From Chelatococcus composti (lineage in GTDB: Bacteria; Pseudomonadota; Alphaproteobacteria; Rhizobiales; Beijerinckiaceae), in NCBI RefSeq assembly GCF_014201415.1, contig NZ_JACHEH010000003.1:434001-498000 (forward strand): a stretch of 64,000 nt of DNA. The letters are read 5' to 3'. Positions 53,709-62,716 of the stretch are shown here, piece by piece. Under the pieces are notes generated by a model that worked only from the letters and a program-made list of their open reading frames with translations, did no database searches and was not told where the DNA came from. A program made the position numbers and the translations under genes. Positions within the stretch are counted from its first letter, which is position 1. Each line of letters opens with the position of its first letter.

Positions 53709-53893
53709 GATGATGGCCCCCCTCGGCGCGAGCGCGCCGTTCCAAACACCTTCATATCATGGCGGCGAGGTCGGCAAAAGATGCCCGGTCGGGCCGGATG
53801 TGGCCTTGCGGCTGGACGAGCGGCCGCCCAGACGCCACCTTGGAAGCGGACCCCGCAGGGGCGACGCAGCAGGGGAGACGAGGCGTGAACGTG

Positions 53894-55360
53894 ATGAAGG
53901 CAGGCCATTTCGAACCCGTCGCGAGTGCGAGCGAAGCCGTGGACCGGCTTGCGGCGCTGCACGGGGCTGCCTGCCAGTCCCTGCGCGACGCGCTCGAACG
54001 GTATCTGAAGACGCGCAAGCCGCCGACGCCGGCAGAGCGCGCCACTTTCCGCTACCCGGAAGTGCGGGTGACCTACCGCCCCGAAGGGGTTATGCCGGTC
54101 TCGGCGCGGGCTTATGCCAAGTTCCAGGGGCCCGGCGTCTATTCGACGACCGTGACGCAGCCCGAGGCATTCCGGCCCTATCTCGTCGAGCAGCTCGGCC
54201 TCCTGATGCAGGACTTCGACGCGCGGGTGGAGGTGGGCGTCAGCGAGCTGGAGATCCCCTATCCCTATGTCGTCGATCGCGGCGACGAGCTGGCGGGGCA
54301 CGGAGTGAGTGCAGTCGAGCTGGCGCGCTTCTTCCCGACGCCGATGCTCGCGGCGGTCGGCGACGAGATCGCCGACGGGCTGTGGGAGGGGGAAGAAGGT
54401 CAGCCGCGGCCGCTCGCCCTGTTCGACGCCGTGCGGGTCGACTTCTCGCTCCGGCGCCTCGTCCACTACACCGGGACGGATTGGCGCCTCATCCAGCCCT
54501 GGGTGCTGCTCACCAACTACCACCGCTATGTCGACCAGTTCGTGCGCTGGGCGCTGGCACGGCTCAAGGACGACGAGCGCTATGAGCGGCTGGTGCTGCC
54601 GGGCAATGTCGTCATTCCCCGCGGGCTGGCGGAAGACGAGGCCATCGCGCGCGTCACCGGCGTGGCCTGGCACCGCTTCCAGATGCCGGCCTATCATCTC
54701 GTGGCGCGCGACGGCCACGGCGTGACGCTGGTCAACATCGGCGTCGGGCCGGCCAATGCCAAGAACATTACGGATCATCTTGCCGTGTTGCGCCCGCACT
54801 GCTGGTTGATGATCGGTCACTGTGGCGGCCTCAGGCAGTCGCAGATGATCGGCGACTACGTTCTCGCCCACGCCTACCTCAGGCAGGACCGCATTCTCGA
54901 TGAGGCCGTGCCGACGCATGTGCCGATCCCCGCGCTCGCCGAGGTGCAGGTCGCCCTGCAGGAGGCAGCGGCCATCGTCACCGGCGACAAGGGCGAGGCG
55001 CTGAAACGCCGCCTGCGCACCGGCACCGTCCTCACCAACGACGACCGCAACTGGGAGCTGCGCTGGTCGCAGGAGCGGCGCGTCATCAATCTCTCGCGGG
55101 CCATCGCGGTGGACATGGAGAGCGGCACCATCGCCGCCCAGGGCTACCGCCTGCGCGTGCCCTACGGCACGCTGCTTTGCGTGTCGGACAAGCCGCTGCA
55201 CGGCGAGATCAAGCTGCCAGGCGCCGCCAACGCCTTCTACGAGCGGGCGGTGGGCGAGCATCTGCAGATCGGCCTCAAGGCGCTCGACCTCTTGCGCAGC
55301 CAGCGTGCCCAGCTTCACTCGCGCAAGCTGCGCAGCTTCGACGAGCCGCCCTTCCGTTAA
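53894..55360 (+). CDS. amn: AMP nucleosidase
   Basis: A 488-residue enzyme that hydrolyses AMP to adenine and ribose 5-phosphate, adjusting AMP pools. The N-terminal AMNp_N domain (PYPYVVDRGDELAGHGVSAVE in parts) is followed by a phosphorylase-like catalytic domain with VTLVNIGVGPANAKNITDHL, GHCGGLRQSQMIGDYVLAHA, and AVDMESGTIAAQGYRLRVPY near the end. Length equals the E. coli enzyme (484). A GTG at 53885 is an alternative start. Confidence 0.95.
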   Translation: MKAGHFEPVASASEAVDRLAALHGAACQSLRDALERYLKTRKPPTPAERATFRYPEVRVTYRPEGVMPVSARAYAKFQGPGVYSTTVTQPEAFRPYLVEQLGLLMQDFDARVEVGVSELEIPYPYVVDRGDELAGHGVSAVELARFFPTPMLAAVGDEIADGLWEGEEGQPRPLALFDAVRVDFSLRRLVHYTGTDWRLIQPWVLLTNYHRYVDQFVRWALARLKDDERYERLVLPGNVVIPRGLAEDEAIARVTGVAWHRFQMPAYHLVARDGHGVTLVNIGVGPANAKNITDHLAVLRPHCWLMIGHCGGLRQSQMIGDYVLAHAYLRQDRILDEAVPTHVPIPALAEVQVALQEAAAIVTGDKGEALKRRLRTGTVLTNDDRNWELRWSQERRVINLSRAIAVDMESGTIAAQGYRLRVPYGTLLCVSDKPLHGEIKLPGAANAFYERAVGEHLQIGLKALDLLRSQRAQLHSRKLRSFDEPPFR

Positions 55361-56459: not shown

Positions 56460-56873
56460 ATGCCGATCATTGAAGTGAAGTATGCCGCTGCGCAGGGGCG
56501 GCGTGTCGCACGCAGCGATATCGCGAAGGCGGCGAGCGCGCTTGCCGCCGATGTGCTGGGCAAGTCGCCGGCCGTCACCGCCGTGGTGGTGGAGGAGGTG
56601 GCGGCGCAGAACTGGTTCTGTGGGGGTCGCGCCCTCGCCGAGAGCGGCCTTGCGAGTTTCTGGCTGTCCATCCGCATCACGGAAGGCACGAACACCCGCG
56701 CCGAGATGGGCGACTTCGTCGCCGCGACCTTCTCGGCCATGGGCAGCCTGCTCGGGCCGGTGCACGAGGAGAGCTACGTGCATGTGATGGAGGCGCGCGG
56801 TTTCGCCTATGGCTATGGCGGCCGCACGCAGGACGAGCGGGAGACTGGAAGGCGCGCAGGCGCGACGGCCTGA
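56460..56873 (+). CDS. 4-oxalocrotonate tautomerase-family protein
   Basis: A 137-residue member of the tautomerase superfamily. It begins MPIIEVKY, so Pro1 after Met removal is available as the catalytic base. The remainder repeats the beta-alpha-beta fold (VTAVVVEEVAAQNWFCGGRA, ASFWLSIRITEGTNTRAEMG). It is longer than classical 62-residue 4-OT and resembles the YusQ/PptA-like group. The substrate is unknown. It is next to a decayed LysR fragment on the opposite strand, a pairing typical of LysR-tautomerase loci. Confidence 0.85.
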   Translation: MPIIEVKYAAAQGRRVARSDIAKAASALAADVLGKSPAVTAVVVEEVAAQNWFCGGRALAESGLASFWLSIRITEGTNTRAEMGDFVAATFSAMGSLLGPVHEESYVHVMEARGFAYGYGGRTQDERETGRRAGATA

Positions 56874-56974
56874 GGTGAGGCAAGGGACGAGGCCGGCCCG
56901 GCTCGGTCCTTCGCCATCCGCTGCACACCATTTGTCGGCAGCGCGGCGTTCTTCCTTGCATCTGTCTCAGGTTC

Positions 56975-56994
56975 ATATAAACATATGTTTATAT
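56975..56994. promoter_or_regulatory. Perfect 20-bp palindrome, probable operator of the ArsR-methyltransferase regulator
   Basis: ATATAAACATATGTTTATAT is an exact 20-bp palindrome in otherwise GC-rich sequence. It ends 16 nt before the regulator start. ArsR-family dimers bind such AT-rich palindromes. Placement at the promoter of the regulator-metF(-metH) genes suggests autoregulation. Confidence 0.75.
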
Positions 56995-57010
56995 CTGTTG
57001 GACCAGAGCG

Positions 57011-58024
57011 ATGCGCCAGCCGCTGTCACTGCCATTCACGACGGTTCTTGCCGGGCTCAAGGCCGCGGCGGAGGAGACGCGCCTGCGCATCCTGGCACTG
57101 CTCGCGGACGGTGAGCTCAACGTTTCCGATCTCACCGACATCCTCGGCCAGTCGCAGCCGCGCATCTCGCGCCATCTGAAGCTGCTTACCGAGGCCGGGC
57201 TCGTCGAGCGCCACCGCGAGGGGGCGTGGGCTTTCTTCCGCCTCGACCACCGCAACGGGGCCGCGGCGGCGATCCGCGCGGTGCTTGAGAGCCTCGATCA
57301 CGACGACCAGCAGCTCGCTGCCGACCGGGCGCGCCTTGCCGCCGTGCGCAAGGCGCGGGCCGAGAGCGCGCAGGCCTTCTTCGCGCGCCTCGCCGCGGAC
57401 TGGGATCGCATCCGTTCGCTCCATGTCTCGGAGGAGGCGGTGGAGCAGGCGGTGCGGGAGACGATCGGCGACAAGCCGGTCAATGCCTTTCTCGATCTTG
57501 GCACCGGCACGGGGCGCATGCTGCAGCTCGTGGCGCCGCTCGCCCGCCGGGCGGTGGCTGTCGACGCCAACCATGCCATGCTCTCCGTCGCGCGGGCCAA
57601 CATCGAGCGCGCCGGCCTCTCGGGCATCGAGCTGCGCCAGGGCGACATCTACGCCCTGCCGGTCGAGCGCAATGCCTTCGACCTCGTGCTCGTGCATCAG
57701 GTACTGCACTATCTCGACGATCCCGCGCGGGCCATCCGCGAGGCGGCGGCGGTGCTGGCGCCGGGCGGGCGCCTGCTGGTCGTCGACTTCGCGCCCCACG
57801 AGCTCGAATTCCTGCGCGCCGAGCATGCCCACCGTCGCCTCGGCTTCGCCCATGAGCAGATCGCCCAGTGGTTTGCCGAGGCGGGGCTCGAGCTCGTCTC
57901 GACGCGTGAGCTGAAGCCGCCGCGCGACGAGACCGACAAGCTCACCGTCTGCCTGTGGCTGGCGCGCGACAGGCGCGTCGTCACCGACTGGCCATTGCAA
58001 GCACCCGAGAAAGAGGTCGCCTGA
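57011..58024 (+). CDS. ArsR-family regulator fused to SAM-dependent methyltransferase
   Basis: A 337-residue fusion. The N-terminal winged helix-turn-helix (residues 10-90, EETRLRILALLADGELNVSD and QSQPRISRHLKLLTEAGLVE) is ArsR type without metal-binding cysteines. The C-terminal class I methyltransferase domain has FLDLGTGTGRMLQLVAPLAR (motif I), AVDANHAMLSVARANI and LVHQVLHYLDDP. Its stop overlaps the metF start (TGATG). Given this linkage it probably senses SAM or SAH and controls the methionine cycle genes. A perfect palindrome lies just upstream. Confidence 0.92.
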   Translation: MRQPLSLPFTTVLAGLKAAAEETRLRILALLADGELNVSDLTDILGQSQPRISRHLKLLTEAGLVERHREGAWAFFRLDHRNGAAAAIRAVLESLDHDDQQLAADRARLAAVRKARAESAQAFFARLAADWDRIRSLHVSEEAVEQAVRETIGDKPVNAFLDLGTGTGRMLQLVAPLARRAVAVDANHAMLSVARANIERAGLSGIELRQGDIYALPVERNAFDLVLVHQVLHYLDDPARAIREAAAVLAPGGRLLVVDFAPHELEFLRAEHAHRRLGFAHEQIAQWFAEAGLELVSTRELKPPRDETDKLTVCLWLARDRRVVTDWPLQAPEKEVA

Positions 58025-58950
58025 TGTCGCACGCCCCCTTCCGCCCCAGCCGTCGTGGCGCGTGCCCGGTGCGCGTCTCCTTCGAGTTCTTCCCGCCGAA
58101 GACCCCGGAGATGGAGGAGACGCTGTGGGCGTCGATCAAGCGGCTGGCGCCGCTCGGGCCTCACTTCGTCTCCGTTACCTACGGGGCGGGCGGCTCGACG
58201 CGCGAGCGCACGCACGCGACCGTCAAGCGCCTCGTCGAGGAGACGTCGCTCGCGCCGGCGGCGCACCTCACCTGCGTCTCGGCTACGCGGGAGGAGGTGA
58301 ACGAGGTGGTGCGCGCCTATTGGGAAGCGGGCGTGCGCCATATCGTGGCCCTGCGGGGTGACCCGGCCGAAGGCATCGGCGCCGCCTTCAGGCCGCATCC
58401 CGGCGGCTACGAGGGCTCACCGGAGCTCGTCGCCGGCATCCGCGCCATCGCCGATTTCGACGTCTCGGTCTCGGCCTATCCCGAGAAGCACCCCGAGAGC
58501 GTCTCCATCGACGCCGACATCGAGCTTCTAAAGCGCAAGGTGGATGCGGGCGCCTCGCGTGCCATCACCCAGTTCTTCTTCGACAACGACGTCTATTTCC
58601 GCTACCTCGACAAGGTGCGGGCCCGCGGCATCGACATCCCCATCGTGCCGGGCATCCTGCCGGTGCAGAACTTCAAGCAGGCGGCCAACTTCGCCGCGCG
58701 CGCGGGGGCGAGCGTCCCGGCCTGGCTGGCGAACCGCTTCGACGGCCTCGACAACGACGTTGAGACGCGCCGCCTCATCGCCGCGGCTGTGGCGGCGGAG
58801 CAGGTGATCGACCTCGTCGACCGCGGCGTGACGGATCTGCACTTCTACACGATGAACCGCGCCGACCTCGTCTATGCCATCTGCCACCTGCTCGGCCTGC
58901 GGCCGACGACGGCGGAGGCCGAGCCCGTGGCCGCTGTGGCGGTGGCGTAA
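58024..58950 (+). CDS. metF: Methylenetetrahydrofolate reductase
   Basis: A 308-residue flavoprotein making 5-methyltetrahydrofolate for MetH. TIM-barrel signatures are [15 protein letters not shown] (with catalytic Glu), [30 protein letters not shown] and [20 protein letters not shown]. It overlaps the upstream regulator gene by one base and precedes metH by 22 nt, so the three genes form a regulated unit. Confidence 0.97.

Positions 58951-58972: not shown

Positions 58973-62716
<3,744 letters not shown>

Follow-up and report, generated by a model that had tools for sequence, protein, structure and literature searches.

The window, that is, the whole 64-kb stretch of Chelatococcus composti DNA analysed here, contains a perfect 20-bp palindrome, ATATAAACATATGTTTATAT, at positions 56975-56994, which is its only perfect palindrome of that length (the next longest, of which there are three, measure 16 bp). 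A gap of 16 bp separates its end from the ATG at 57011 of a plus-strand regulator gene, here called sahR (57011-58024), with a possible Shine-Dalgarno GGA seen by eye at 57000-57002 (+). The 337-aa product matches, in Pfam, an ArsR winged helix at residues 22-66 (HTH_5, 60 bits against a cut-off of 22) and a class I methyltransferase-like domain, whose best match is Methyltransf_11 at residues 161-257 (89 bits against a cut-off of 21). Its stop codon ends at 58024 on the A of the ATG of metF (58024-58950, +), a 5,10-methylenetetrahydrofolate reductase gene by its profile match (MTHFR, 313 bits), and 22 nt beyond metF follows metH (58973-62716, +), encoding a B12-dependent methionine synthase of 1247 aa (TIGR02082, 1771.5 bits, cut-off 1010.85). 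An earlier note on this DNA had described a site self-complementary over all 20 bases, placed just before a regulator with a C-terminal SAM-methyltransferase domain that overlaps metF, and the coordinates and Pfam matches bear out all three points, the overlap being a single nucleotide.

Upstream of the operon lies a tautomerase-family gene (56460-56873; Pfam 27.8 bits, cut-off 22) whose 137-aa product is longer than typical members of that family. Between it and the palindrome, at 56933-56948, is a hairpin that resembles a terminator and is followed by a T-rich tail (TGTCGGCAGCGCGGCG TTCTTCCTTG); one such hairpin was seen against 0.2 expected from shuffles. Further upstream, the 533-aa product of positions 53759-55360 is of the AMP nucleosidase type (AMNp_N 161 bits, PNP_UDP_1 64 bits). 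Riboswitch control of the operon was considered and rejected: at Rfam gathering scores a tRNA was the sole match in the window, and no riboswitch was found in the operon.

Base composition alone predicts about 0.2 perfect 20-bp palindromes per 64 kb and about 0.00014 in the 137-bp intergenic region, so the position of this one counts for more than its symmetry. In 78 of 80 named relatives, the best-ranked of 308, a site matching at 15 or more of the 20 positions is found upstream of the regulator, the two exceptions being L025 (best site 13/20) and L068 (12/20). Among 550 mononucleotide-shuffled upstream regions, none scored above 14 and 17 reached 13 or 14, so that the L025 site proves nothing by itself. 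The same threshold of at least 15/20 was reached in all 29 loci taken from further members of the order, which were the top-scoring ones among 199 genomes. At class level, a relative of the regulator was detected at an E value of 1e-60 or better in 72 of 142 genomes, and among the best 29 of these loci, one of which belongs to the host's own family, agreement with the 20-position consensus is 18 or more in 25 and 15-17 in the remaining four; the named, order and class-level sets overlap in part. This conservation upstream of relatives is the best evidence in the sequences against a chance palindrome: that the site is a fortuitous AT-rich symmetry without regulatory role, as the composition-based expectation of about 0.2 per 64 kb might allow, has next to no probability given its retention at the corresponding position in 78 of 80 relatives, at a level that no shuffle reached. 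Judged by its conservation, the palindrome is a conserved operator, annotated here as the predicted, unstranded SahR operator. The downstream genes are largely kept as well, with metF just downstream of the regulator on the same strand in 76 of the 80 named loci, and metF together with metH in 51 of 80, several loci being too short to tell. Four sahR relatives (L068, L039, L055 and L060) have no metF downstream within the DNA examined, and L068 is also without the operator.

A consensus built from 108 sites, host included, reads RYATAAASATATSTTTATRY, in which ATAAA and TTTAT are almost fixed. The host operator carries a symmetric C8/G13 pair (CATATG centre), a minority form: C stands at position 8 in 36 of the 108 sites and G at position 13 in 14. 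A link between positions 8/13 and the recognition helix was rejected on inspection by eye, the helix being near-constant while the operator varies; the helix variation seen was I or V at residue 52, and K57R in locus L069.

The regulator itself is 97% identical to its counterparts in Chelatococcus sambhunathii and C. caeni. For a broader view, we used an alignment of 52 sequences (A1), comprising the window protein and 51 of the 80 named relatives chosen to thin near-duplicates, with rows that are matched ranges and not always whole genes. Invariant across these 52 sequences are Q47-S48-Q49-P50-R51 and S53-R54-H55-L56, a segment that, by homology, should form the DNA-reading helix typical of ArsR proteins. 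Equally invariant are the SAM/SAH pocket motifs (D162, G164-T-G-T-G168, D185 and D212) and two further motifs, H229-Q-V-L-H233 and D259-F-A-P-H263. A confident AlphaFold model of the regulator (mean pLDDT 87.1, pTM 0.81) was compared with known structures by Foldseek, and all 50 matches listed were methyltransferases or proteins with that fold, many of them solved with SAM or SAH; RdmB ranked first and YcgJ second, with Rv2258c, DnrK and others after. Full-length matches gave TM-scores of about 0.4-0.5 and rmsd values above 15 Å, so the two domains of the regulator are probably arranged differently. Single-domain enzymes such as YcgJ, BH2331 and Hvo_0019 gave TM-scores of 0.64-0.70 by target length. 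In two further chain listings (60 of 72 chains in one, 23 of 23 in the other), no chain had a best stretch spanning both domains.

Next, we evaluated the distribution of the operator across the host genome (3.72 Mb in 24 contigs, rated 99.99% complete). Within three mismatches of the family consensus, the whole genome holds two sites, against none for a reversed-pattern control. The second, ATATAAAGACTTCTTTATGT (G000:C2:344139-344158), stops 79 bp short of the ATG that starts the sole ahcY (AdoHcyase, 496 bits). The earlier note had proposed looking for further copies before metK, ahcY and metA/X/Z, and of these places only ahcY has one: the whole-genome scan found no SahR-type site within three mismatches at the sole metK and no third site of that quality anywhere, hence none before metA/X/Z. 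At Rfam gathering scores, no riboswitch was detected at ahcY, at metK or at two Chelatococcus loci. In the metK region (L134 1006-1440 and 1565-2749), a helix-turn-helix gene (HTH_3, 46 bits) precedes metK.

Elsewhere in the host genome, we noted a SAM-II (SAM_alpha) riboswitch candidate at G000:C4:509651-509723 (+) (locus L135, 1501-1573). It scores below the Rfam cut-off (28.3 of 36 bits) and keeps the conserved core GGUGAUUUGA, GCUUGC and CGCUAAAG. Downstream on the same strand are an NADPH-dependent FMN reductase (FMN_red, 111 bits) and a frame for an ABC-type binding protein (NMT1, 44 bits), two matches from which the genes 3' of the candidate look like a sulfonate-use set.

Across the order, the motif occurs within two mismatches in 54 of 61 genomes, host included, while the reversed-pattern control matched five times in three genomes, with three of these matches in G051, a genome that also has three true-pattern matches. 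Of the 57 ahcY-bearing genomes, host included, 35 have a site at a distance of 73-248 bp upstream of the ahcY Pfam match; the earlier note had named a lack of further copies near methionine genes in related genomes among its refuting conditions, and these are such copies. The other 22 genomes have no site within two mismatches at ahcY, and 17 of them bear the motif elsewhere. Before sahR, a site was found in 44 of the 47 genomes (out of 61) for which a sahR position was listed, and before metK in 4 of 59 metK-bearing genomes. Another 37 sites are not beside a listed sahR, ahcY or metK, and we examined the neighbours of 18: 16 adjoin a protein that Pfam identifies as homocysteine methyltransferase, pterin-binding or MTHFR, and two (L116 and L130) have no such neighbour. 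The remaining 19 may include sites of sahR genes that were not listed. One site in G015 is absent from these order counts. Overall, the motif in this order precedes sahR, ahcY and, where sampled, methionine synthase genes.

The sites before sahR and ahcY differ at their centres. Of 44 sahR sites, 39 have ATAT as the middle four bases; of 35 ahcY sites, two do, and 22 carry AAAT or its reverse complement there. When both sites are present in one genome, an ATAT centre at sahR is paired with a non-ATAT centre at ahcY in 29 of 32 cases, and the reverse was never seen. The Fisher value for this difference (1.3e-14) overstates independence because the sites are related by descent. Since the search pattern was itself ATAT-centred, the non-ATAT result at ahcY cannot be its product, although the sahR ATAT count may be inflated by it. 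Speaking against such inflation, 108 sites near sahR were found by similarity instead of by this pattern, though with a palindrome that was also ATAT-centred, and 103 of them have T at position 10 and 104 have A at position 11. This operator difference offers a testable way into the question of whether control within the regulon is graded.

Taken together, the palindrome is very likely the operator of a SahR encoded just downstream, an SAH-responsive repressor of the SAM cycle. Novichkov and colleagues reportedly defined SahR, in 2014, by an ArsR winged helix fused to a SAM-methylase-like domain, and the methylase-like domain is said to be the SAH sensor. Both domains are found here by Pfam, the AlphaFold model and PDB fold matches. 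Leyn et al. (2014, PMC4239095) describe SahR as an ArsR-family, SAH-responsive regulator with a 20-bp palindromic motif, present in each alpha- and deltaproteobacterial group examined there, if not in each genome, and with sahR, ahcY, metH, metF and metK as core targets; metK is "core" there by frequency (>70% of SahR genomes) and is not required in each. SahR motifs are further reported to show taxon-specific substitutions (PMC5343134). The publications found to name both SahR and Chelatococcus look unrelated to this locus.

In such a system, a SahR dimer would bind the symmetric site through its ArsR winged helices. Bound 16 to 36 bp before the start codon, it would most likely block the sahR-metF-metH promoter, an occlusion that we can only infer, since a sigma-70 scan found no promoter at the palindrome site. 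Through the second site, it would also repress ahcY, if repression follows the published family. When SAH accumulates, it would act as the inducer proposed for that family, binding the methyltransferase-like domain and causing SahR to leave the DNA. Release would switch on ahcY for SAH removal, along with metF and metH for homocysteine remethylation, and would also switch on sahR itself, amounting to negative autoregulation. The earlier note had pictured a SAM- or SAH-sensing switch with the methyltransferase fold as the sensor, an idea that is sound and amounts to a rediscovery of SahR as already described; by the same family resemblance, which also suggests DNA binding, SAH is the likelier signal of the two.

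A signal other than SAH, either SAM (as co-repressor or inducer) or homocysteine, is unlikely. In favour of such a signal, the SAM pocket motifs are conserved, class I methyltransferase folds can accommodate SAM as well as SAH, and PMC4239095 assigns no effector to the distant relative SamR. However, the host's two sites serve ahcY, metF and metH, not metK, a set that suits the clearing of SAH, and the Desulfovibrio SahR is reported to respond to SAH (PMC4239095, PMC8877191).

A different function is suggested by the arsR^M-metF-HMT-metH operon of Brevundimonas sp. M20, whose regulator was described as a bifunctional, arsenite-linked ArsR^M that attaches to its own promoter and uses SAM to methylate As(III) (PMC10190100). 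The report gives a promoter gel shift, a kit-measured signal of 0.87 U/mg and, in E. coli, an increased MIC for arsenite, and both the kit activity and the raised arsenite tolerance count against reading the protein as SahR. With the numbering shifted by a uniform 6, seven of the nine SAM/arsenic residues that it names are identical in the window protein: H223, Q224, H227, Y228, F254, R263 and H268 correspond to H229, Q230, H233, Y234, F260, R269 and H274, while C134 and P296 are replaced by S140 and K302. The match includes both residues assigned to arsenic, Q224 and Y228 (Q230 and Y234 here). With so many residues shared at one offset, the two proteins very probably belong to the same family, and, judged from the named residues, the Brevundimonas ArsR^M is very probably a SahR and a probable orthologue of the window protein.

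For the window protein, we consider it quite unlikely that the function is that of ArsR^M. The arsenic-assigned residues sit in an order-wide motif, H229-Q-V-L-H233 being invariant in the 52 aligned sequences and Y234 present in 28 of them, and the sampled neighbours of the motif are SAM-cycle genes. The NCBIfam arsenite methyltransferase model scores 59 bits against a cut-off of 263. In other ArsM enzymes, conserved cysteines are reported to bind As(III) (PMC10190100); no such conserved cysteines were found in the window protein or the order set. The window protein has a single cysteine, C314, and in the order set cysteine is absent from 42 of 80 full-length sequences (and from 30 of the 52 A1 rows), with no cysteine column shared by more than seven, so cysteine-based arsenite binding is not common to the family there. 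Class-level relatives are richer in cysteine, with only two or three of 29 having none, depending on where the start was cut, 19 of 29 sharing the residue 206 column and 12-14 sharing each of three others, none of these columns being invariant. This cysteine test argues against an ArsM-type site but does not refute the ArsR^M function, because the published model uses no cysteine. On balance, arsenite methylation is poorly supported for the window protein, for which the sequence evidence favours SahR, though it may still apply elsewhere. There is a conflict in print, in which what is very probably one family has been named both as a SAM-cycle repressor (SahR) and as an arsenite methyltransferase (ArsR^M).

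We regard a trigger-enzyme version of SahR as highly unlikely. Its still-catalytic domain would make SAH in its own pocket, using arsenite or another acceptor, and so bring about release from DNA, and the two operator classes would let ahcY open before the synthase operon. If this were true, the sensor would report methylation flux and not only the SAH pool, and the symmetric ATAT centres (sahR) and asymmetric AAAT-type centres (ahcY) would set the order of opening.

Returning to SahR as an SAH-responsive repressor, we compared the host system with those described before. The Brevundimonas ArsR^M shares the same domain fusion and the same operon type, and differs in that its authors read it as an arsenite methyltransferase and in its reported palindrome, CTTTATATAAAG (PMC10190100), which was found in 0 of 29 class-level upstream regions. 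SamR of Xanthomonadales, as presented in PMC4239095, is a distant SahR homologue acting on methionine genes, with about 30% identity to SahR, a wider biosynthetic regulon and a 24-bp palindrome, whereas the host motif measures 20 bp. Another system is sahR of Ensifer aridi LMR001, a gene of similar length (1023 bp) whose expression was highest in its own deletion mutant; its predicted regulon, with sites before sahR, ahcY, metH, metK and bhmT, is larger than that of the host, which has two sites only (PMC8877191). Compared with SahR as described in PMC4239095, the host differs by having no metK site, with no third site within three mismatches, and by an operator of the minority C8/G13 form. 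It shares the ArsR helix-turn-helix with a methylase-like domain, the 20-bp palindrome before the regulator's own gene and the SAM-cycle targets ahcY, metF and metH, the latter as judged from sites and operon structure rather than expression. The locus is therefore an instance of a known system, SahR with its operator, found in a host where it is new. It is well formed yet ordinary for its kind, and it adds Chelatococcus, with a regulon of two sites, to the bacteria with this SAH switch.
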